Below, piece after piece: positions 2,761-22,234 of a stretch of DNA of 22,234 nucleotides. The notes below the pieces were generated by a model, which saw nothing but the letters and a program-made list of their open reading frames with translations, searched no databases and was not told the origin of the DNA. The stretch covers positions 1 to 22,234 of the IMG/VR virus record IMGVR_UViG_3300028557_000211. One strand, given 5' to 3'. Origin of the DNA: a virus. A program made the translations under genes and the position numbers. Within the stretch, counting starts at the first letter, position 1; each line of letters opens with the position of its first letter.

Positions 2761-3651
2761 TTATAAAGACAATTTTTTTCTTAAATCTGAAATAACCCAT
2801 TCTGGTCTTTCATTAATGTCTTTTTCCCAATAACGAATTAAAGTAATGTTATTACTAACACATAATTCATCTTTATATCTATCATTTTGCTTTGTTAATT
2901 TTTGAGTTTCATAAATAATTTCATGATGTTTTGAGTCCGGATTACAATGGTAAAAATCACCATCAACTTCAATTAGAATATTATATTTTTCAAGATAAAA
3001 ATCGAACAATCTATGTTGATATTCGTATTGATACTCAAAATTAAGATTAATTAATCCCAAAATTTTTTCGAATTTAGTTTCAATTTTACTTTTTTTATTA
3101 CTTAATTTGGTTTTCAACCAATTAACCCTACGTTTAGACGCGTTTTCTTTTAATTTAGGATTATCTTCGTAACGTTTTTTTTGTGAAATTGATAACTTTA
3201 GTTTTGATTCTTCTGTTTTTGGAACTCCTTTTAATTTTTCAGATATTCGTTTCCCTCTATCTTTGTTGTTTCTTAATTTTTCTTTAATACCTTCTATTTT
3301 CACTAAAGTCTCTTCTGACTTGTTTTCCCACCATCCTTTATACTTACCCTCTTTCCAATTTTTCTTTTGGGTCTCGATTGCCTTTTTGTGGGTTTCAGGA
3401 TTTTTATGGTAATTGTTTTTACCTAGAACCCTATTATGGTGTGATTTAATAAATCTTGAGAATCCTTTCCCTATTGAAATAAAGGGGGGTATACCTCCAC
3501 AACCACATTCACACTTCGGTTCTACACCTTTCAAAGCATATTCGATATAAATTTTATCACCACTTATATTGTGTTTTTGTACAGAATGACTTCTTAATGA
3601 ATTAAGACTGTCACATTTTTTTTGACATATATTACAAACAAAAATTCCCAT
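2761..3651 (-). CDS. Vsr-type (EDxHD) free-standing homing endonuclease with C2H2 finger and NUMOD3-like region
   Basis: The 296-residue protein has three recognisable parts. Residues 6-27 form a C2H2 zinc finger (C6, C9, H22, H27). The middle (about 85-175) is strongly basic and carries NUMOD3-like DNA-binding segments such as RISEKLKGVPKTEESKLKLS. The C-terminal about 100 residues form a Vsr/DUF559-like nuclease core with FDFYL (D217) and LIEVDGDFYH (E228, D230, H235), then RYWEKD. This is the architecture of EDxHD homing endonucleases, which make site-specific breaks to spread their own gene. It sits between the tube and gp26-like genes. A longer frame begins at ATG 3681, but the internal ATG at 3651 is preferred: the zinc finger begins immediately after it, and the upstream codons fall in a perfect hairpin with a promoter-like loop. 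It is probably selfish DNA with no structural role. Confidence 0.8.
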   Translation of the reverse strand: MGIFVCNICQKKCDSLNSLRSHSVQKHNISGDKIYIEYALKGVEPKCECGCGGIPPFISIGKGFSRFIKSHHNRVLGKNNYHKNPETHKKAIETQKKNWKEGKYKGWWENKSEETLVKIEGIKEKLRNNKDRGKRISEKLKGVPKTEESKLKLSISQKKRYEDNPKLKENASKRRVNWLKTKLSNKKSKIETKFEKILGLINLNFEYQYEYQHRLFDFYLEKYNILIEVDGDFYHCNPDSKHHEIIYETQKLTKQNDRYKDELCVSNNITLIRYWEKDINERPEWVISDLRKKLSL

Positions 3652-8375: not shown

Positions 8376-8410
8376 AGTTCAAAATTATTGTTAGCAAATT
8401 TATTTTAATG

Positions 8411-8417
8411 ATAAATA
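8411..8417 (-). promoter_or_regulatory. TATTTAT promoter-like motif before sheath gene
   Basis: Sense AATATTTATCA lies 35 nt before the sheath ATG in the 121-nt gap that also holds the start region of the divergent small RHH gene. Confidence 0.5.
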
Positions 8418-8496
8418 TTCATATCTAAGTGAAAAAACTTGACTTTTGAATATCTATTTGTAAGTAGTATGAATTTATTCTACCTTTTTTCTACCT

Positions 8497-8658
8497 ATGA
8501 AAACAACTAAAGAAATAAAGAATATCAAAATATCTCCTGAATCACACGAGATATTAAAAAAGTACTGTGAAAAGCGTGGGATAAAAATCTATAAGTTTTT
8601 GGAAAATCTTATAGTGGAGAAGTGTAAAGAGAAGAAAGATATCTATGGAGAGGATTAA
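8497..8658 (+). CDS. Small ribbon-helix-helix (Arc/CopG-like) protein, solitary
   Basis: This 53-residue ORF begins MKTTKEIKNIKISPESHE. It has the ribbon-helix-helix pattern: a basic beta strand (NIKISPE, residues 9-15), helix A (HEILKKYCEKRG), a turn, and helix B (YKFLENLIVEKCKEK). Such proteins dimerise and bind DNA with the paired strand. Two other RHH genes in the window are joined to HNH endonucleases; this one has no endonuclease partner. Its stop overlaps the stop of the convergent gp15-like gene by 4 nt. Only a generic AT-rich upstream region is seen, without an exact TATTTAT motif. It may be a repressor or the remnant of a cassette. Confidence 0.65.
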   Translation: MKTTKEIKNIKISPESHEILKKYCEKRGIKIYKFLENLIVEKCKEKKDIYGED

Positions 8659-12225: not shown

Positions 12226-12243
12226 AGTAAATTGAAGCCAACA

Positions 12244-13782
12244 ATGAATAAGACAGAAGAGAAGATTCAACAACTCGAATTACAGATTGTAGAACAAAAA
12301 GTAACTAGAGAAAAAGAGTTGTTAATCACAGAAATGAAAAAAATTGGGATAGAAAAATTACCCTACTCCTACTCCGCCCTCAAACAATTTATCGACCCCG
12401 AAACAATGGATTTCCATTACAACAAACATTACAAGGGGTATGTTGATAAATTAAACGACGCTCTCTCCAATAAAAAATATGGAGATTTAGAGTTAGAACA
12501 AATAATCAAAACTATAAGTCGATTTGACAAAACAATTAGAAACAACGCAGGTGGAGCATTCAACCACGCATTGTTTTGGAACATGTTAACACCTGAACCA
12601 AAAAGACTCAAAGGAGATTTACAGAAAAAAATAATTAAAGAATTCGGTAGTTTTATTTTGTTCAAGAGAAAATTCGAAGAGATTGCCAAAGAAAGATTTG
12701 GTTCAGGATGGGTTTGGTTAGTTTTGACAGGTAGAAATAGTTTAAAAATTATGTCCACCCCAAACCAAGATAACCCTTTGATGAATATTATTGAAGGTGG
12801 AGGATTTCCGTTATTAGGTTTGGATTTATGGGAACATGCATATTATCTCAAATATAAAAACAAAAGAGACGAATATATTTCTAATTTTTGGAAAGTGGTA
12901 AATTGGGACTTTGTTTCCAAACTTTATGATATGAAAACAGAAACAAAACTTTTGGAATCTGTTGAAATGAAAAAAATTATCAAAGAGTTCGAAGAACCAA
13001 AATTTTGTGATTCAAATGAAATTACTTTTTATAAGGAATTAATCAACAACCCTAAGATAAAAAAATTATATCAAGATGGTGTGACTGATGTTTTGAAAAA
13101 AGTATTTCATGAATATTGGGTGGAAGGTACAGATAAAGAAATGTCAGGATTTTATGGGATTGAATCAGACAGTGCTAGATCGGTTTTGAATAACCTGAAT
13201 ACCAACTTTAATACTTTTTGTTTATTAACAAAAGCAATCAATAGACAGATAGAATCTATTAACAAGCCGAACAAAAAATTTGATTTTTCCATCAAAGAGA
13301 AACGAACAATTAGTGAGGTCAATAGACTTATCGCAGCATTAGATTATTTCAAAAAAGAAATTTTTACAAAAAACAACGAAGATTTTGTTAACATAATCAG
13401 TGTTTTGTTAAAACTTTGGGATAGAGGACAAAAATCTGAAGACAAAGTTCTTTCTAAAATAGAACAATATTTCGGTAAAGATTCTTCAGTTGAAAAGATA
13501 GGTGGACATGGTCAAAAGAATGACGCATTCAAAGGAATTGATTTGATTGTTAATGTTGGTGGTAAAAAACACACCGCTCAAGTCAAACCTTTTTCTTTTA
13601 TTAAAAAAGATGGGGACAAAATCACAATTATGGATACAGGTAATGTTAAGCCGTATAACGTAGATTGGATGATATTTATAAACACTAAGTCTAATAAAAT
13701 TCTAATTATTGAGAATAATCCGATTGAGAGTCGTGACCAATATGTATTCAATGCGTCATCTCTAATTCACGAAATAGATTAA
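12244..13782 (+). CDS. Manganese-type superoxide dismutase fused to a PD-(D/E)XK-like nuclease domain
   Basis: The protein has 512 residues from ATG 12244; an upstream in-frame TTG at 12232 is less likely. Residues 1-33 form a charged coiled coil. Residues 38-230 are a complete Fe/Mn superoxide dismutase. The metal ligands H58, H108, D194 and H198 are present (FHYNKH, FNHALFW, DLWEHAYY), as are the second-shell H62 and Y66. The motif STPNQDNPLM (Q175) together with Gly at the Fe-type glutamine position (G104) indicates the Mn type. Residues 231-395 are helical and unassigned. Residues 396-490 look like a restriction-endonuclease fold: E399, GIDLIV (D433) and AQVK (Q446-x-K448). The dismutase should convert superoxide to peroxide and oxygen. 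The C-terminal part may bind or cut DNA; catalysis there is inferred from three residues only. It lies between a SNF2 helicase and a neck gene. Confidence 0.8.
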   Translation: MNKTEEKIQQLELQIVEQKVTREKELLITEMKKIGIEKLPYSYSALKQFIDPETMDFHYNKHYKGYVDKLNDALSNKKYGDLELEQIIKTISRFDKTIRNNAGGAFNHALFWNMLTPEPKRLKGDLQKKIIKEFGSFILFKRKFEEIAKERFGSGWVWLVLTGRNSLKIMSTPNQDNPLMNIIEGGGFPLLGLDLWEHAYYLKYKNKRDEYISNFWKVVNWDFVSKLYDMKTETKLLESVEMKKIIKEFEEPKFCDSNEITFYKELINNPKIKKLYQDGVTDVLKKVFHEYWVEGTDKEMSGFYGIESDSARSVLNNLNTNFNTFCLLTKAINRQIESINKPNKKFDFSIKEKRTISEVNRLIAALDYFKKEIFTKNNEDFVNIISVLLKLWDRGQKSEDKVLSKIEQYFGKDSSVEKIGGHGQKNDAFKGIDLIVNVGGKKHTAQVKPFSFIKKDGDKITIMDTGNVKPYNVDWMIFINTKSNKILIIENNPIESRDQYVFNASSLIHEID

Positions 13783-14932: not shown

Positions 14933-15268
14933 ATGGCGATAGTAAAATCAATACCTTCAAGAAGAATAATCAAGGGTGAAGTTATAAACACTTCAGAAAT
15001 TTCTGTGGTATCTGAAACCACATATAAAACCAACGGAGAAAGTTGTGTTATTGTTAGGGGTGTTGCTCAAGCAGTAATAATTTTAGACTCATCTAATACC
15101 GATCACGTTGTTGTTAAAGCAATGACCAACCTCACCATTCTTCCTGATGTGGGACTAATCGATGAAGAATACGATGAGGTTGTTGTTGATAAGTTTGCTT
15201 GTATTGAATTTAGATTTGTTGGTGGTAACTGGTACGTGCTCTCGTCTGATGGATTGAAACAATCTTAG
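14933..15268 (+). CDS. Small beta-rich protein, probably virion-associated
   Basis: The 111-residue product is nearly all beta strand by pattern: MAIVKSIPSRRIIKGEV, then ESCVIVRGVAQAVIILDSS, DHVVVKAMTNLTILPD, and a C-terminal CIEFRFVGGNWYVLSSDGL. There are no catalytic motifs, signal peptide or membrane segments. Alternating hydrophobic strands with a final WYxLSSDG resemble small capsid-decoration or fibre-type proteins of phages, but I cannot name the family. It starts 4 nt after the gp13-like stop, so the two are surely cotranscribed. Its stop overlaps the convergent HNH endonuclease stop by 4 nt. Confidence 0.7.
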   Translation: MAIVKSIPSRRIIKGEVINTSEISVVSETTYKTNGESCVIVRGVAQAVIILDSSNTDHVVVKAMTNLTILPDVGLIDEEYDEVVVDKFACIEFRFVGGNWYVLSSDGLKQS

Positions 15269-15921
15269 AGTATTTTATCCCCCTTCGCCATATTATCTTC
15301 TGACCAAAGGGGTTGTAAATTACTATAATGACAAAGTTTATAAATCTCTTCCTCGGTTTTAGCCGATGATAATGGGATAATATGGTCAATATGCCAACCA
15401 TAATAACCATAATTTTCCCAACACATTTCACCAATAAATTGTTTTTCCAAATACTCTTTTAGAAATTCAGGTGAACATCCTACAACATCAAAAGTTCTAT
15501 TATTTTTTGTGATGTTATTTGATTTTAAAAACTTATTAATTCTCCTCCTCGTATTATCGGTTAACTTACATAATGAATTGTCATTTCTTTTTTTTCTTCT
15601 ATATTCATTAATGAATTTTCTATTGTTTTTTGACCATGCGTTTACCCGATTTCTGTCCCTCTCAATATTTTTTTCTCGGTATTGTCTTTGTTGTTCCCTT
15701 ACCAAATTATAATTAAGGTAATAGTAAATTGAATTTCTTTCTTTTAATTTTTCTTTATTATTTTTCCGATATAAAGATTGTGTTTGTTTATTGTTATCTA
15801 GGTTAGAATGATAGTTTAAATTTGAGTTTTTACATTTACATTTTTTACACTCTTTTCTACCGGTATAAAATTCACAAACATTTTTTTCCTCGTCACACTT
15901 ACTACAAATTTTTGTTTCCAT
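15265..15921 (-). CDS. HNH endonuclease of RHH-HNH cassette 1
   Basis: The 218-residue product has an N-terminal zinc finger with two CxxC pairs (C6/C9 and C25/C28), a long basic helical middle (about 30-140, very rich in Lys, Arg and Asn), and a C-terminal HNH nuclease domain. The nuclease core is GWHIDHIIPLSSAKTEEEI (H177, D179, H180) with NLQPLWSEDN (N201, N210). It should nick or cut DNA at a specific site, as homing endonucleases do. Its C-terminal 60 residues are nearly identical to the second copy at 20093, while the middle differs, as expected if the middle sets the target. ATG 15921 lies inside the end of the RHH gene. The 3' end overlaps the stop of the convergent small virion gene. 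Confidence 0.88.
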   Translation of the reverse strand: METKICSKCDEEKNVCEFYTGRKECKKCKCKNSNLNYHSNLDNNKQTQSLYRKNNKEKLKERNSIYYYLNYNLVREQQRQYREKNIERDRNRVNAWSKNNRKFINEYRRKKRNDNSLCKLTDNTRRRINKFLKSNNITKNNRTFDVVGCSPEFLKEYLEKQFIGEMCWENYGYYGWHIDHIIPLSSAKTEEEIYKLCHYSNLQPLWSEDNMAKGDKIL

Positions 15922-16063
15922 TTTTTCTATAATCTTTAAGTAATTGACTAACTAATGAAGATAAATTAATATGAAGCCCTCGATAATAAGTTAATAGTTC
16001 AGGGTCTAACGCCACTGATACTTTAGTTTTTTTTTCTTCTTCCGTTTTTAATTTTCGTCCCAT
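15902..16063 (-). CDS. Ribbon-helix-helix protein of RHH-HNH cassette 1
   Basis: A 53-residue ORF starts MGRKLKTEEEKKTKVSVALD. The RHH pattern is clear: basic strand KVSVALDPE (14-22), helix A (LLTYYRGLHI) and helix B (SSLVSQLLKDYRK). The stop TAG is embedded in the codons for the conserved ICSKC start of the HNH gene, giving a 20-nt overlap. The same arrangement occurs in copy 2. Such proteins usually bind DNA as dimers; here it may repress the endonuclease or direct it to a site. A TATTTAT motif ends 4 nt before the ATG. Confidence 0.75.
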   Translation of the reverse strand: MGRKLKTEEEKKTKVSVALDPELLTYYRGLHINLSSLVSQLLKDYRKNGNKNL

Positions 16064-16067
16064 ATTA

Positions 16068-16074
16068 ATAAATA
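16068..16074 (-). promoter_or_regulatory. TATTTAT promoter-like motif before RHH gene, cassette 1
   Basis: Sense GATATTTATTA ends 4 nt before ATG 16063, in the 51-nt gap after the DNA polymerase stop. Confidence 0.45.
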
Positions 16075-16114
16075 TCTACAAATATATCAAAAGTGTGGTT
16101 ATTCACAATTTTAT

Positions 16115-18895
16115 TTACATAAAATTTTCCCATCCTTCTTCCGCCAAATCATAAATGTAATTAGGACTTAGACCTCTTTTTTCCCAATACTTGAGTTCCA
16201 ACTCAGTAATATTCAACACGTCTTCTTGTAACCTGTCTTGGTCTCCATCACTTAATGGATGACCATTAATAAGTTCACACTGAGATGTTGTAAAGATGCC
16301 TCTTTCTGATGGGTTATTAACAATTAATCCATTTCTTACCTCGTCCTTGAAAACAACCATTAAGGGCTCAATTCTTTTGTTAAATGTTACAATTGCTCTT
16401 GGAACATTATAATCCCCTGTTAAATCAGGGTTATTGTCTAAAATATCTTTATCCAACATATAACAATTAATCATAACTCCATCCGTAATGGGTTTTGTTT
16501 TAATCCCATTAAACTCATTAAGGGCATTAATATCTTTAATTTGTTTTGGAGTCATCTTCTGAACATCACCTTGTGATGCTTTAGTTCCATTATTAACATA
16601 CATAATAACATCACCTAAACTCACATTCAAATTATTTTGTATTGCCAATTCCAAATATGCCATCCGGCTCATACTATTACCCGATTTAGTTTTGGTGTTT
16701 AATCTTTTTTTATATTCTTCAATAGTCAATTTAACCTTGGCTCTTTGGGCTATCTTACTTAACGGAATCTTTTTATCATAAATGGTTTGAAGATACTCAT
16801 AATAGTATTCAACGAATGCTTTCCCATCCCCTTGTAATAACATCTTAATCCCCTTATCTAAGAATGTCTCAATATAAATCGGAAGTTTTTTTGACTTGAT
16901 ACTGTTACCAGTAAGTTTGATTTTACCCTTCGCATCCATAACCGCATAGTTCTTACGAGCCAAGTTAATACATGAAGGCCAAACACCATCAGTATCCAAA
17001 GCCATTTCTCCTCTCATGAAGATGTCGTTATATTCTGCAACATCCGCCTCAGGTCCGAAATATTCTTTACCCAACTTAACCTTCCAATTCAAACCACGTC
17101 CAACATATACTCGATTCTTAGCATCCTCAGGTGTAGAGAAGTTTACACCGTCAGTATCCATTACCAACGGAACATATCCTTTCGACATAAAAAACTTAAT
17201 CATCTGACGAAGATATTGTCTTCCAGTGCAGGTAATCTGCTCTCCCATGTACATGTCACCCCAAGCATAAACCTGAGGAGCAGATAACGCCCCAAATAAT
17301 GAATTTATGAACACCTTAATCGGTAATTGTTTATTACCATATGATTCGGATTTCTTTCGATCAGTTGCGTAGAATTCCTCTGCAAGTTGTTTGTATTTAA
17401 TACGAGTATTACGAAAATAAGTCAACATACCTTTCATCGCTCCTGTTACGTCACAATCAGGAAATACGTCATGTACCAACTGAATGGAGGGGTATAGAGA
17501 CGAGAAGTCAAGCTTGAGTACGTCCTTACTATATCCCACCTTAAGTAGTCTTGAGAGACCTCCTACGAAGTCAGTCTTGGATTCTTTAGCGGGGATTGCG
17601 ATGTTATATTTATATGACCACGCTAAAAGTAACATCTTCCACAATGTTGCAGTGCCCATAGTGGATACTCTTTCATAGGTAGTTGGAATCATCGCAGCTA
17701 ACAAGAATGAACCTTGGTTGAATTCTTGATCAACTTTCAAGGTTTCGTCCAAGTCATCGTCAAGGTATCTTTCAACCAAGTTATCACCAGTCACTTTAAG
17801 ATATACGTCACTTCTCTGTTCACAAATATTATCTATCTTAGGGTCTTGTCCGACCTTACGGTAGTTTCCATTCTGTGTATTCAACCAAAACTCTTCTTTC
17901 TTGGTATAGAATGGAGCGATGTCCAAGTGGTCAATATACACTCGGTCAGGTGCTTCAGCATTGATATACTGTGTAATATATTTCAAACCCGCAGACTTAA
18001 TACTTGAATTAATCGCTTGTGCTCTACGAACCGCATGAATGATATCAATCACATTATATCCCCAAATTGAAGTTTGAGTATATAACTCAACTTCGTTGGC
18101 AAGTTTTAACATACCTTCTTTTCTTGTAAATGAATGGTCAGGATGTAGGGAACGACAAATCTTCTTTGGGTCAATCCCCAAAATTTTACATCGTTCGAAT
18201 ATCCAATGCCAGTCGAAGTTTGCAGAATTGTATCCACCAATAATACTTGGTTTCAATTCATTAATAATACTGAAAAACTCTATGATTGCCCCCCGTTCTT
18301 GAGACTCATCAATGCATTCGATAACTTTATGGTATCCTTTGTTTGTTTTAATTCCAATCATGAATATACGACCGTCTTTGGGTTCCAATGCGGTCGTTTC
18401 CAAGTCAAATACAAGGCGGGTAACTTGATTATAATCTTCAAATCCTTTGAACAATCTTTTTTCCTTTTGAACCAAATACTGTTCAACAGGAGATAGAATC
18501 ATAATTTTTTCTTTGGTTCTTTCTCCCCAAGGGTCACATCCACCTTCTCTAAAAAATTGGACAAGTTCACGATAACCTTTAAGAGATTTGACCATAAAGG
18601 TCATGCCCTTTTCTAATCTTTTATTACCGTGTGTTTCGAGTTTATCAATCATAATACCATGTTTGGTCATGGCTTCCTTCTGTGCGGCTTTTGAACCACC
18701 ATAGAAGTTAATATCCCGTAAGTCACCTACCCAAGCGAATGGAGTGAATGTGTCCTTACGGATTTCTTTACCTTTGCCAGATATTTCTTTGATTTTGTAA
18801 ATGGAGTTGGAAGCGTAGTCGAACTCGATTGCGACTATAAATTCTTCGGGGTCGTTTCCGTGTAGGAACGATTCAATTTCTTGTTCTGTAAACAT
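16115..18895 (-). CDS. gp43: Family-B DNA polymerase (gp43-like)
   Basis: The 926-residue product is a T4-type replicative polymerase (T4 gp43 is 898). The 3'-5' exonuclease is intact: Exo I VFDLETTAL (D164, E166), Exo II GYNSANFDWH (D228), Exo III RYLDDD (Y377, D381). Polymerase motifs are A LKLDFSSLYPSIQ (D463), B KVFINSLFGALS (K527, N531, G535) and C VMDTDGVNFS (D580, D582). The C-terminal YDLAEEGWENFM could be a clamp-binding tail. It copies the phage genome with sliding clamp and loader. A roughly 40-residue segment before Exo III with several charged residues looks like an insertion. No intein or intron breaks the gene. It has its own 102-nt leader with a TATTTAT motif and a small hairpin, so it is probably expressed apart from the upstream 165-residue gene. 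Confidence 0.97.
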   Translation of the reverse strand: MFTEQEIESFLHGNDPEEFIVAIEFDYASNSIYKIKEISGKGKEIRKDTFTPFAWVGDLRDINFYGGSKAAQKEAMTKHGIMIDKLETHGNKRLEKGMTFMVKSLKGYRELVQFFREGGCDPWGERTKEKIMILSPVEQYLVQKEKRLFKGFEDYNQVTRLVFDLETTALEPKDGRIFMIGIKTNKGYHKVIECIDESQERGAIIEFFSIINELKPSIIGGYNSANFDWHWIFERCKILGIDPKKICRSLHPDHSFTRKEGMLKLANEVELYTQTSIWGYNVIDIIHAVRRAQAINSSIKSAGLKYITQYINAEAPDRVYIDHLDIAPFYTKKEEFWLNTQNGNYRKVGQDPKIDNICEQRSDVYLKVTGDNLVERYLDDDLDETLKVDQEFNQGSFLLAAMIPTTYERVSTMGTATLWKMLLLAWSYKYNIAIPAKESKTDFVGGLSRLLKVGYSKDVLKLDFSSLYPSIQLVHDVFPDCDVTGAMKGMLTYFRNTRIKYKQLAEEFYATDRKKSESYGNKQLPIKVFINSLFGALSAPQVYAWGDMYMGEQITCTGRQYLRQMIKFFMSKGYVPLVMDTDGVNFSTPEDAKNRVYVGRGLNWKVKLGKEYFGPEADVAEYNDIFMRGEMALDTDGVWPSCINLARKNYAVMDAKGKIKLTGNSIKSKKLPIYIETFLDKGIKMLLQGDGKAFVEYYYEYLQTIYDKKIPLSKIAQRAKVKLTIEEYKKRLNTKTKSGNSMSRMAYLELAIQNNLNVSLGDVIMYVNNGTKASQGDVQKMTPKQIKDINALNEFNGIKTKPITDGVMINCYMLDKDILDNNPDLTGDYNVPRAIVTFNKRIEPLMVVFKDEVRNGLIVNNPSERGIFTTSQCELINGHPLSDGDQDRLQEDVLNITELELKYWEKRGLSPNYIYDLAEEGWENFM

Positions 18896-18922
18896 TTTAT
18901 ATATACGAGTGGTTTATTGGCT

Positions 18923-18938
18923 TTCACACTAACGTGAA
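18923..18938 (-). promoter_or_regulatory. Small hairpin in the DNA polymerase leader, possible autoregulatory operator
   Basis: In the sense RNA a 5-bp stem UUCAC/GUGAA closes a 6-nt loop, 27 nt before the polymerase ATG. T4 gp43 represses its own mRNA through a hairpin with a 5-bp stem near the start. The resemblance is in size and place only. Confidence 0.3.
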
Positions 18939-18958
18939 GTTTACCTTACTCATCGTCT

Positions 18959-18965
18959 ATAAATA
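18959..18965 (-). promoter_or_regulatory. TATTTAT promoter-like motif before DNA polymerase
   Basis: Sense TATATTTATAGAC lies 63 nt before the ATG, the longest spacing in the set. Confidence 0.4.
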
Positions 18966-18997
18966 TAAAATAAATCCCTGACTTGTCAAATTGAGGA

Positions 18998-19495
18998 CTA
19001 TAATAAAAGTTTTGGACTATTTTTGTTTTCCTTCGTCGTCATCAAATAAGAACCATTTTTTGAGAATGCTGAAGTAATAATTTTATAATTTTTCAAATCA
19101 TCTGCTAACACAATAAACTCCAAATAATTCATAAAGTACGGTAACCCCAAATCATCTCCCACTTCTTTGATTACTGAAATAGTATTATTTGGTCTTACCA
19201 AATCTAACTTTGACATTTTGTTCTTTATTTTATCAAAGTCGTCGATAAAAATACTTCCAATTAATTTATTGGGGGCTCCGACTCTTTCGAAAAATTTTGG
19301 ATTGTTTGCAAAATTATAATCGTAAATTTCCACAATTTCATCAAGAGATTTATTTCCCTGTCGTTGGTTCCATTGATGGTATGTTGCGGATAAATTTATT
19401 AAAAATTTATCATAAACAAAACTTACAATAGGTAATGACCCATCAGGTTTTACTTGCTCTAAAATTAAATCGGATAATAGTCGGGTTAGTTTCAT
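18998..19495 (-). CDS. Unknown 165-residue protein
   Basis: I do not recognise this protein. It starts MKLTRLLSDLILEQ, an amphipathic N-terminal helix similar to short head-targeting or propeptide segments of T4-like phages (T4 internal proteins start MKTYQEFIAE and are cut after an acidic Glu). The rest is mixed alpha/beta with no cysteine clusters or catalytic motifs; examples are IGSIFIDDFDKIKNKMSKLD and a C-terminal KIITSAFSKNGSYLMTTKE. It begins 3 nt after the stop of the BppU-like gene, so the two form one operon. A packaged or virion protein is a guess from its start and neighbour. Confidence 0.6.
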   Translation of the reverse strand: MKLTRLLSDLILEQVKPDGSLPIVSFVYDKFLINLSATYHQWNQRQGNKSLDEIVEIYDYNFANNPKFFERVGAPNKLIGSIFIDDFDKIKNKMSKLDLVRPNNTISVIKEVGDDLGLPYFMNYLEFIVLADDLKNYKIITSAFSKNGSYLMTTKENKNSPKLLL

Positions 19496-19498
19496 ATA

Positions 19499-19876
19499 TT
19501 AACAACATGCTGTTTCTGATATGAAACTATCTTGAATGTTTATGTATAATTCTTCCCTAATTGGTAATATTAAATTACCTTCATCGTTCTTGATTAAGAA
19601 TTGTCCCTGATATCTGCCAGGTGTGTTTGTATCTCTTGAACTAAATTTGAAATAAATATAGTACTCGGGAGCCGCTCCGAGAGGTAGAATTAAATTAACA
19701 ATCTCACAAGGAGCAGAAACAATCTTAGGAATACCTGTTTCCACATCAATCATGGTAAAAAATATTGTCGAGACCTCAAGGTCTTCCATGAGTTGCTGAT
19801 AGCCTGATCTTCCGTCCTTTACCACCTGCATTTTTAATACAGGCAAGGTTGCCCCTTTTTTAATATACCATTCCAT
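19499..19876 (-). CDS. BppU-N-like baseplate/tail-fibre domain protein
   Basis: The 125-residue product has the beta-sandwich pattern of the N-terminal domain of phage upper baseplate or fibre adaptor proteins (BppU type). It starts MEWYIKKGATLPVLKMQVV (a strand after a Gly-x-x-Pro turn), then STIFFTMIDVETGIPKIVS, EYYIYFKFSSRDTNTPGRYQ and a final YINIQDS. The stretch DTNTPGRYQGQFLI matches the usual D-T-x-x-P-G-x-Y-x-x-x-F motif. Such domains attach receptor-binding parts to the virion. It ends with two cysteines. A TATTTAT motif lies 14 nt upstream, and the 165-residue gene follows 3 nt later. Confidence 0.6.
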   Translation of the reverse strand: MEWYIKKGATLPVLKMQVVKDGRSGYQQLMEDLEVSTIFFTMIDVETGIPKIVSAPCEIVNLILPLGAAPEYYIYFKFSSRDTNTPGRYQGQFLIKNDEGNLILPIREELYINIQDSFISETACC

Positions 19877-19890
19877 TTTTCTGTTTAAGT

Positions 19891-19897
19891 ATAAATA
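19891..19897 (-). promoter_or_regulatory. TATTTAT promoter-like motif before BppU-like gene
   Basis: Sense ATATATTTATACTT lies 14 nt before ATG 19876, in the divergent gap with RHH-HNH cassette 2. Confidence 0.45.
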
Positions 19898-19944
19898 TAT
19901 AGTATTTTTCTTTTGATAAAGTGAAACTTTTACTGAGTACGAGA

Positions 19945-19951
19945 TATTTAT
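19945..19951 (+). promoter_or_regulatory. TATTTAT promoter-like motif before RHH gene, cassette 2
   Basis: GATATTTATAA ends 5 nt before ATG 19957, matching the spacing in cassette 1 (4 nt). Confidence 0.45.
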
Positions 19952-19956
19952 AATAT

Positions 19957-20112
19957 ATGGCGAGACCTACAAAATTAGAAGAAGACCGAAAGGTAAAATT
20001 CGGTATCAGTTTAGACCCTGAAATATTTAACCGAATGGTTAAAGACAAAATAAAAAAATCTACTTTAATCGAGAAGTTATTGAAAGAATACTATGGAAAA
20101 AAAGATTTGTAG
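19957..20112 (+). CDS. Ribbon-helix-helix protein of RHH-HNH cassette 2
   Basis: A 51-residue ORF starts MARPTKLEEDRKVKFGISLD. It has strand KVKFGISLDPE (12-22), helix A (IFNRMVKDKI) and helix B (STLIEKLLKEYYG). Like cassette 1, it has a basic N-terminus, an x-x-LDPE strand end and a stop TAG inside the HNH gene start. The two RHH proteins share pattern more than sequence, so they may recognise different sites. Its gene precedes and overlaps the HNH gene by 20 nt, implying coupled translation. Confidence 0.75.
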   Translation: MARPTKLEEDRKVKFGISLDPEIFNRMVKDKIKKSTLIEKLLKEYYGKKDL

Positions 20113-20713
20113 TAAGTGTAAAATTGAGAAGGAGGTTTGTGAGTTTAATAAAAAATCGGTATCGAAAAATGGTATGCAATACTACAAAAGTAGATGCAAA
20201 AAATGCCAAAGTGAGGACGAAAAAATTAGAAGGGATTCGAATCCTGAACAATATAAAATTTGGTATGATAAAACCCGTGTTGATAGAAATAAATGGAGGT
20301 CAGAGTATTATCAAACAAATAAAGAAAGAATTAGAGATTACAACAAAAAATTCGATAAACAGAAGAGTAGTAATTTTATGGTAAAATATCATAATGATAC
20401 AATTGTAAAGTTACGGCATAGGTTAAGTTGTCGACTTAGAGAAGTATTAAAATTTAAATCAATGAAAAAAAATAAAACCTACAACGATGTCATAGGTTGT
20501 CCTCCAATTTTTTTAAAAGAGTATTTAGAAAAACAATTCACAGATGGGATGTCTTGGGAAAATCACGGATTATATGGTTGGCATATAGACCATATAATAC
20601 CATTGTCTTCGGTAAAAACTGAGGAAGAAATATATAAACTTTGTCATTATACAAATCTTCAGCCACTTTGGGCTGAAAATAATTTGAAAAAAAGTAATAA
20701 AATTTTATCTTAA
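20093..20713 (+). CDS. HNH endonuclease of RHH-HNH cassette 2
   Basis: The 206-residue product has CxxC pairs at C6/C9 and C35/C38, a basic middle, and the HNH core GWHIDHIIPLSSVKTEEEI (H164, D166, H167) with NLQPLWAENN (N188, N197). Its N-terminal eight residues and C-terminal 60 closely match the cassette 1 enzyme, while residues about 40-130 do not, consistent with a swapped target-recognition region. It should cut a specific DNA site and help the cassette spread. ATG 20093 lies within the RHH gene end. The stop overlaps that of the convergent glycosyltransferase gene. Confidence 0.88.
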   Translation: MEKKICSKCKIEKEVCEFNKKSVSKNGMQYYKSRCKKCQSEDEKIRRDSNPEQYKIWYDKTRVDRNKWRSEYYQTNKERIRDYNKKFDKQKSSNFMVKYHNDTIVKLRHRLSCRLREVLKFKSMKKNKTYNDVIGCPPIFLKEYLEKQFTDGMSWENHGLYGWHIDHIIPLSSVKTEEEIYKLCHYTNLQPLWAENNLKKSNKILS

Positions 20714-22234
20714 CATTCTTTCCTTAAATCACGAGAATAGTGGTCAACCCTATCGTGTTCGGTTGGGGTTAACAATAAAATTCCAGAGGTAATTACTCCC
20801 TTTTTAGTTTCTTGATACATAAAGCTCATCCACGTTTGTTCAAAAGGTGATTGAAATTTTGTATCTAAAAACATTTTTTGATTACCAGTTCTGCTAACAA
20901 TTTGTGGCCAATTACAGTAAAAAATTTCACCTTTAGCATAAGGAACTCCCTTATGAGATAAAACTTCATTAAATTGTGTTTTAGGAGCATTGGTATCTAA
21001 ACCAATTTCAGGTAGTCTAGGTTTACCTGGCCAAAATTCTGTCCTAATATGTTGTGGAACATTGTACCAAGCCCAGCACGTTCCATTATCACCATAAAAT
21101 TCAGTGTAATTTAACTTTAAGAAATCTAAATTTTCTTTTTTGATAATTTCTAAAGACTTACTGTATAAGTTAGGAACATATCTATTGAATCCATTTCTAC
21201 AAACCTTACCTTCATTTGGATAAAAATTCATGTCATCCTCAAAAAATAAATAATAGTCCAAATCAGTTTCATTTTGGAAGTGTTCTGCAATCCATTGTCT
21301 ACCCCCGCATATTCCCAAATTATCTTTTTTAATATGTTCAAATCCAAATTCTTTGCAAATCTCCGAGTATTCCGCGGTAGTTGACAAATCACTAGAGTTA
21401 TCAAGTAAAAATTTGGTTGTTTTGTTTAGATAATCTTTATCGTAAGCCAACATCGAATCAATTAGTGTTCTAAATTGTTTTGGACTGTTAAACGTAATTA
21501 CGTAAAGACCTACTTTGTTTGTATCTAAATTATTTACAACTTGGACTGAACTTTCATTTTTAACTTTAAGTGTGTCATTCTTTAAGTCTTCAAAAAACTT
21601 ACCGACTAATCCATTGCCTTCAATTTCAAAATAATTGAATAGGTCTGAATGTTTATAGCACATGATACTGAATATTGATTCTTCAGTACCCATGTATCCT
21701 TCTTCTAAAGTGCTTTTTAACAATCCATAATAAATTCCATTAACATCACTAATTGTGTGTTTAGGACCTCCAAAAAAACCACCTCTTGCAACTTTGGTTA
21801 CTTTATTACCGGCGATGGAATTTAACTTGTTATATTCAAATCCATGAATTTCTCTTTCTGCATCATAAGGAAAACTAACAAATGAAAATTTGGAGATATA
21901 TTTAGATAAGTTGTTCAAAACTTTATCATGAGTAAAATAACCTGGATGTACGGTATTTGTTAATCCACCATCAATCCAAAACATATATTCCGAATTGAAT
22001 TGGTCCATGATTTTAGCGTCATGTAACAAAAACATTTTTGACATTACCAATGGATTGTAGTTTTCCAAACGACCTTGTGTAGATTCTTTCAACCAACCAG
22101 ATTGGGTATACCATTCAGGATTAGTTCTAATTTTTTGAACCAATGAAAAAAATTCAGAGTTAGTAAACCAACTTAATGGTCTAGTAATAAATTGAGTATT
22201 TTCAGTGTTTCTTCTCTCAAAAACGAAAGATTTT
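20710..22234 (-). CDS. YibB-like plus GT-A glycosyltransferase, partial (5' end beyond right edge)
   Basis: The frame is open from the stop at 20710 to the right edge, about 508 codons, so the start lies outside the window; the TTG at 22143 is not needed as a start. The N-terminal half resembles HtrL/YibB proteins, with LVMSKMFLLHDA and YMFWIDGGLTNTV, followed by an RGGFFGG segment. The C-terminal half is a GT-A glycosyltransferase: VGLYVITFNSPKQFRTLI, DNLGICGGRQWI and the acidic metal site FFEDDMNFY (about 21225-21245). Together they suggest sugar transfer, perhaps to DNA bases, virion glycans or host surface polysaccharide; the acceptor cannot be told. It shares a 4-nt tail-to-tail overlap with the HNH gene. 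Confidence 0.75.
   Translation of the reverse strand, partial: KSFVFERRNTENTQFITRPLSWFTNSEFFSLVQKIRTNPEWYTQSGWLKESTQGRLENYNPLVMSKMFLLHDAKIMDQFNSEYMFWIDGGLTNTVHPGYFTHDKVLNNLSKYISKFSFVSFPYDAEREIHGFEYNKLNSIAGNKVTKVARGGFFGGPKHTISDVNGIYYGLLKSTLEEGYMGTEESIFSIMCYKHSDLFNYFEIEGNGLVGKFFEDLKNDTLKVKNESSVQVVNNLDTNKVGLYVITFNSPKQFRTLIDSMLAYDKDYLNKTTKFLLDNSSDLSTTAEYSEICKEFGFEHIKKDNLGICGGRQWIAEHFQNETDLDYYLFFEDDMNFYPNEGKVCRNGFNRYVPNLYSKSLEIIKKENLDFLKLNYTEFYGDNGTCWAWYNVPQHIRTEFWPGKPRLPEIGLDTNAPKTQFNEVLSHKGVPYAKGEIFYCNWPQIVSRTGNQKMFLDTKFQSPFEQTWMSFMYQETKKGVITSGILLLTPTEHDRVDHYSRDLRKEC

Follow-up and report, generated by a model that had tools for sequence, protein, structure and literature searches.

We identified two copies of a gene cassette in a viral genome that most probably acts as a free-standing HNH homing endonuclease with a dedicated, swappable ribbon-helix-helix (RHH) autorepressor and coupled translation of the two genes. 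The cassettes occupy positions 15265–16063 (minus strand) and 19957–20713 (plus strand) of a 22,234-nt stretch of IMG/VR virus record IMGVR_UViG_3300028557_000211, hereafter the window. Their features are as follows.

15265–15921, minus strand: HNH endonuclease gene 1 (HNH1), 218 aa
15902–15921, minus strand: 20-nt overlap of the RHH1 end and the HNH1 start
15902–16063, minus strand: RHH gene 1 (RHH1), 53 aa, RHH type 0
16068–16074, minus strand: TATTTAT promoter-like motif of cassette 1
16089–16108, minus strand: candidate operator 1, TTGTGAATAACCACACTTTT, type-0 motif
15287–16127, no strand: segment absent at site 1 in relatives L091, L093, L095 and L098, with slightly different ends in L099, L101 and L102
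19877–20737, no strand: segment replaced at site 2 by a junction of ~45–57 bp in L091, L093, L095, L098, L099, L101 and L102
19918–19930, plus strand: candidate operator 2, AAAGTGAAACTTT, type-2 motif with a 5-bp inverted repeat
19945–19951, plus strand: TATTTAT promoter-like motif of cassette 2
19957–20112, plus strand: RHH gene 2 (RHH2), 51 aa, RHH type 2
20093–20112, plus strand: 20-nt overlap of the RHH2 end and the HNH2 start
20093–20713, plus strand: HNH endonuclease gene 2 (HNH2), 206 aa

The layout proposed in the initial annotation holds in both cassettes. The overlap is exactly 20 nt in each, the RHH stop codon TAG lies inside the TGT-AGT codons of the HNH sequence ICSKC, and TATTTAT precedes the RHH ATG by 4 nt (cassette 1) or 5 nt (cassette 2). 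HNH1 comprises a four-cysteine zinc knuckle, a lysine-rich helical middle and a C-terminal HIDH...N...N HNH motif. The HNH proteins were described as having near-identical ends and different middles. The two are strongly alike in the N-terminal zinc knuckle and over the last ~60 residues, and they do differ in the middle, but ‘near-identical’ is slightly strong for two proteins with 51% overall identity. The RHH proteins differ as described (41% identity). HNH endonucleases are defined by a catalytic H...N...H/N motif set in a beta-beta-alpha-metal fold. Across 25 HNH sequences the HIDH, N and N residues are invariant or nearly so. Pfam accession PF01844 was found in 8 of these sequences, the C-terminal part of the HNH structural model is of low confidence, and an HNH profile searched against PDB sequences matched Hpy99I (E 0.03), not PacI.

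We searched IMG/VR with both HNH and both RHH proteins and obtained 121 distinct RHH hits, of which 115 have an HNH gene directly behind them. Of the six remaining hits, three reach the contig end within an apparent HNH start. The two genes overlap by 20 (69 cassettes), 23 (21), 11 (16), 26 (5), 17 (1) or 8 nt (1), and all of these lengths equal 2 modulo 3; in the other 2 of the 115 cassettes, HNH starts were computed at 30 and 81 nt downstream. The pairing is thus not a chance arrangement, since nearly all of these RHH-HNH pairs overlap, and in a single frame relation. Among 37 longer records, whose counts are not independent because some are repeat assemblies of one phage, 52 of 56 RHH matches adjoin an HNH gene. 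Up to five RHH cassettes occur per record in the window’s lineage. Related RHH-HNH pairs are also present in another phage lineage, on a 362-kb jumbo-phage contig (record G036; loci L420, L421, L422 and L423). Two of these have a second small RHH gene upstream, and two overlap by only 1 nt and have no zinc knuckle.

Neither RHH matched any record of the cultured phage collection at E 0.5, and the DNA polymerase relatives found in the cultured-relative search are at most ~27% identical. A PADLOC scan for anti-phage defence gave nothing convincing, and we dropped that reading of the cassettes. Elsewhere in the window, 12232–13782 (plus strand) encodes a protein of 516 aa in which a complete Fe/Mn superoxide dismutase (matching both Pfam domains, at 5e-39 and 3e-22) is joined to ~280 residues that match no Pfam family.

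Purifying selection acts on the RHH reading frame, as judged from its pN/pS of 0.14–0.20; the two remaining frames give 0.57–0.97 and values above 2. The RHH is therefore conserved at nonsynonymous sites, a check that the initial annotation had itself proposed. RHH (Arc/MetJ) repressors have an N-terminal beta strand followed by two helices and span about 45–50 aa. A single-chain model of the RHH protein (pLDDT 73) has helices at residues 21–29 and 34–48 and no strand in the monomer; Foldseek with this model returned no match, and an RHH profile searched against PDB sequences hit mostly repeat-protein noise. Pfam searches of 20 RHH proteins matched CcdA in 9 and the BrnA antitoxin in 4, all RHH profile hits being weak, RHH_3 included. 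The sequence pattern, these profile hits and the single-chain model weakly suggest an RHH fold. A third RHH-like gene at 8497–8658 (plus strand) has an Arc-like PHROG hit and stands alone, without an HNH gene; positions 8393–8536, part of this stretch, are missing in relative L101.

The Pfam matches raise the question of whether the RHH is a CcdA/BrnA-like antitoxin that neutralises the HNH as half of an addiction pair, perhaps repressing as well. Gene order and overlap resemble toxin-antitoxin operons, and the authors of a study of moraphages refer to similar proteins as CcdA/HicB-like antitoxins in their paragraph on the pairing (PMC12619734). We nevertheless consider an antitoxin role very unlikely. 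The match of RHH1 to CcdA (24.3 bits, cut-off 22.4) spans profile positions 1–36 of 71, which is the DNA-binding half, and the RHH proteins end shortly after helix 2, so that 50–53 aa leave almost no toxin-binding tail. Neither a C-terminal toxin-binding region nor a CcdB/BrnT-type toxin, as expected of type II toxin-antitoxin systems, is found, the partner being an HNH protein. Moreover, one and the same RHH is found with many HNH bodies, so any RHH-HNH contact would have to involve the shared zinc knuckle or the HNH core, and HNH genes persist without an RHH (see below).

Several observations instead implicate the RHH in binding upstream of its own gene. TATTTAT is best regarded as an ordinary promoter-like motif of these phages: it also precedes window genes 2761 (minus strand), 13801 (plus strand), 19499 (minus strand) and others, and we rejected it as a cassette-specific promoter. 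The first of these genes (2761–3651) encodes a DUF559/Vsr-like putative homing endonuclease and has TATTTAT before its probable ATG, with no RHH partner and no ACTTT motif. Further upstream, each RHH type is associated with its own motif: TTGTGAATATTCACACTTTT for type 0, TATAATTATTCTACTTTT and variants for type 1, AAAGTGAAACTTT for type 2 and AAGTATGACTTTTCATACTT for type 3. The near end of the type-specific motif usually lies 15–27 nt before the RHH ATG. Candidate operator 1 is unique in the window when up to 3 mismatches to its motif are allowed, and candidate operator 2 when up to 1 is allowed.

The upstream motif stays with RHH type from one insertion site to another, and at one site where RHH type changes the motif changes too. 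Pairs with the same RHH at different sites score 17.2 in upstream-region similarity, and pairs with different RHHs at the same site 13.0; the observed difference of +4.3 compares with at most -5.4 in 2000 label permutations. Among type-0 cassettes the motif columns carry ~1.5–1.8 bits, compared with ~0.8 in flank and spacer, and they are kept in a comparison in which RHH synonymous sites already differ by ~50%. An ACTTT precedes TATTTAT in 90 of 98 cassettes but in only 33 of 303 other TATTTAT genes and none of 10 RHH-less HNH genes, which argues against ACTTT being just a component of the core promoter. Inverted-repeat content of the upstream region is only marginally above shuffles, and we set aside a general palindrome excess as support.

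Blind scans of the whole of IMG/VR with the type-0 and type-3 motifs placed 17 of 22 and 20 of 27 stretches, respectively, just upstream of a cognate RHH, and also recovered RHH variants absent from the protein set. Some of the stretches found elsewhere (5 of 22 and 7 of 27) are the same sequence counted twice or contig-end run-offs. The association is partly co-inheritance, because operator and RHH are neighbours on the DNA. Taken as sequence evidence, these results strongly point to cognate operators for the RHH types, and of the two roles offered in the initial annotation, repressor or targeting partner, they favour the repressor. They also bear on the proposal, put forward as an alternative in the moraphage paragraph (PMC12619734), that the RHH is a passenger or host-takeover regulator placed in front of the HNH and offsetting its cost to the phage. 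Conservation of the RHH as a protein would fit such a role. However, RHH genes almost never occur without an HNH gene, as counted above, and matches to the operators tested lie chiefly in the cassette and not beside other genes of the phage. A passenger or takeover function is thus highly improbable.

The other suggested role is that of a targeting subunit, with the RHH guiding the HNH to its homing site. RHH type does correlate with insertion site (AUC 0.85, compared with 0.71 for the HNH body). At site 1, moreover, the near relative L089 is almost identical to the window through the promoter, the RHH and the initial ~57 nt of HNH, after which its HNH body is a different one; this is a pair with one site and a common RHH but different nucleases. 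Pairwise comparison of 105 cassettes argues against targeting. HNH bodies at least 65% identical share a site in 98 of 102 pairs, and they do so in all 21 pairs (about 8 independent cases, a few rows involving one cassette with a frame-damaged RHH) in which the RHHs are dissimilar. Conversely, RHHs at least 90% identical that accompany dissimilar HNH bodies share a site in 103 of 145 pairs and lie at different sites in the other 42. The RHH-linked motif, in addition, sits in the cassette’s own promoter region.

RHH and HNH evidently recombine often, given these swap counts and the 37 RHH-type changes required on the HNH body tree. The RHH tree needs 14 site changes and the HNH body tree 17, similarly low numbers that do not separate the two, and we rejected the RHH as site determinant on the chimera counts. 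It is very unlikely that the RHH aims the nuclease, because near-identical type-0 RHHs accompany different HNH bodies at five or more sites and because some close HNH relatives have no RHH at all. The targeting half of the original suggestion thus falls away.

RHH-less relatives are nonetheless a minority. An RHH partner accompanies 117 of the 142 best-scoring HNH relatives, the remaining ~25 of this clade having none, and nearly none of the more distant ones carries it; this split is partly by construction, because the HNH profile was built mostly from RHH-bearing members. The initial annotation had held that a consistent lack of RHH partners among HNH homologues would count against it, and close homologues mostly carry one. 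At site (0,3), several same-clade HNH genes begin directly after the upstream gene, without RHH, operator or promoter, which suggests that the components of this regulatory head come and go together. Such same-site genes are found at L172, L207, L223, L213, L217 and L218. At other sites a few HNH genes have TATTTAT but no RHH. The existence of RHH-less HNH genes implies that the head is separable and that the HNH persists without it.

Both cassettes are absent, with clean junctions, from seven relatives. Site 1 lies between the convergent ends of the DNA polymerase gene (16115–18895) and gene 14933–15268, and site 2 between genes 19499–19876 and 20710–22143; in both cases the stop codons of the HNH gene and of its convergent neighbour overlap. 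Presence/absence polymorphism at an exact intergenic site, which marks free-standing homing endonucleases, is therefore seen at both positions in at least seven relatives. Flank identity is lower near the junctions (72–84%, rising to 92–96% at site 1 right); such a drop is expected from co-conversion and possibly has other causes. Empty sites in relatives, up to five cassettes per record and the almost exclusive RHH-HNH pairing together support the two-part mobile unit originally postulated.

We propose that operator, TATTTAT promoter and RHH gene form the autoregulatory head of each cassette. The RHH, presumably as a dimer of Arc/MetJ-type fold, would bind the motif just upstream of the promoter and repress both genes of the cassette at the level of transcription. 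Because the start codon of HNH falls within the final part of the RHH gene, the two are probably also coupled in translation. A programmed frameshift fusion of the two proteins was considered and rejected: in cassette 2 a TGA stands in the HNH frame 12 nt upstream of the ATG, so that making a fusion would require a frameshift within the short overlap. In an infected cell, both genes would be expressed until RHH protein reached a sufficient level, and the nuclease would appear in a self-limited pulse that could cut co-infecting phages lacking the cassette while limiting damage.

In co-infected cells, a resident cassette might also repress an incoming one that has the same operator type, although we consider such trans-acting immunity doubtful. 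If true, it would favour switching of RHH/operator heads and keep co-resident cassettes on different operators. Only 1 of 31 within-record pairs is of the same type (a by-eye count over seven multi-cassette records, with repeat assemblies left out and site preference not factored in), which, as speculation, would fit cross-repression.

The C (controller) proteins of type II restriction-modification systems (PMC3874152, PMC6237814) offer a parallel in gene arrangement. They are encoded by a small autoregulator gene just before the endonuclease gene. They are helix-turn-helix proteins that often activate as well as repress, and they work with a methyltransferase. The RHH-HNH cassette shares their layout of a small proposed autoregulator before a putative endonuclease and differs in the likely fold and proposed mode of action of the regulator; among the window genes profiled (a part of the total), no methyltransferase was seen next to either cassette.

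Detailed knowledge of how phage homing endonucleases are controlled comes mainly from intron-encoded T4 enzymes. I-TevI, the GIY-YIG homing endonuclease of the T4 td intron, has a promoter overlapped by an operator and limits its own expression (PMC2988022; Edgell, 2004, doi 10.1038/nsmb823). The cassette resembles it as a putative phage homing endonuclease with a candidate operator at its promoter. However, in I-TevI the enzyme’s own DNA-binding domain represses and the element is an intron, whereas the cassette is free-standing and has a separate RHH gene. The T4 seg and mob homing endonucleases are likewise free-standing and intergenic, some with their own promoter, but the parts of PMC2988022 dealing with them describe no dedicated repressor gene. 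Because regulation here would fall to a separate gene that can be swapped and brings its own candidate operator, and because more than 100 natural versions exist, cognate and mismatched pairs taken from nature could serve to test how specific repressors are for operators and how homing endonucleases are controlled. The tight link between operator motif and gene family also provides a protein-independent way to find cassettes in viromes.

The RHH-HNH pairing seems to have been mentioned in passing in one 2025 paper on moraphages and apparently never analysed. That paper devotes one paragraph to CcdA/HicB-like antitoxins paired with a PacI-like putative homing endonuclease and suggests regulation, which reduces the novelty of the cassette (PMC12619734). 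The moraphage pairing, compared by description, is possibly of the same or a sister type: multiple copies of it are found in large phages from aquatic habitats whose assigned hosts are Bacteroidota. The paragraph contains no operator, overlap, empty-site or chimera analysis (PMC12619734), and what is new here is the operator and chimera evidence drawn from sequence comparison.
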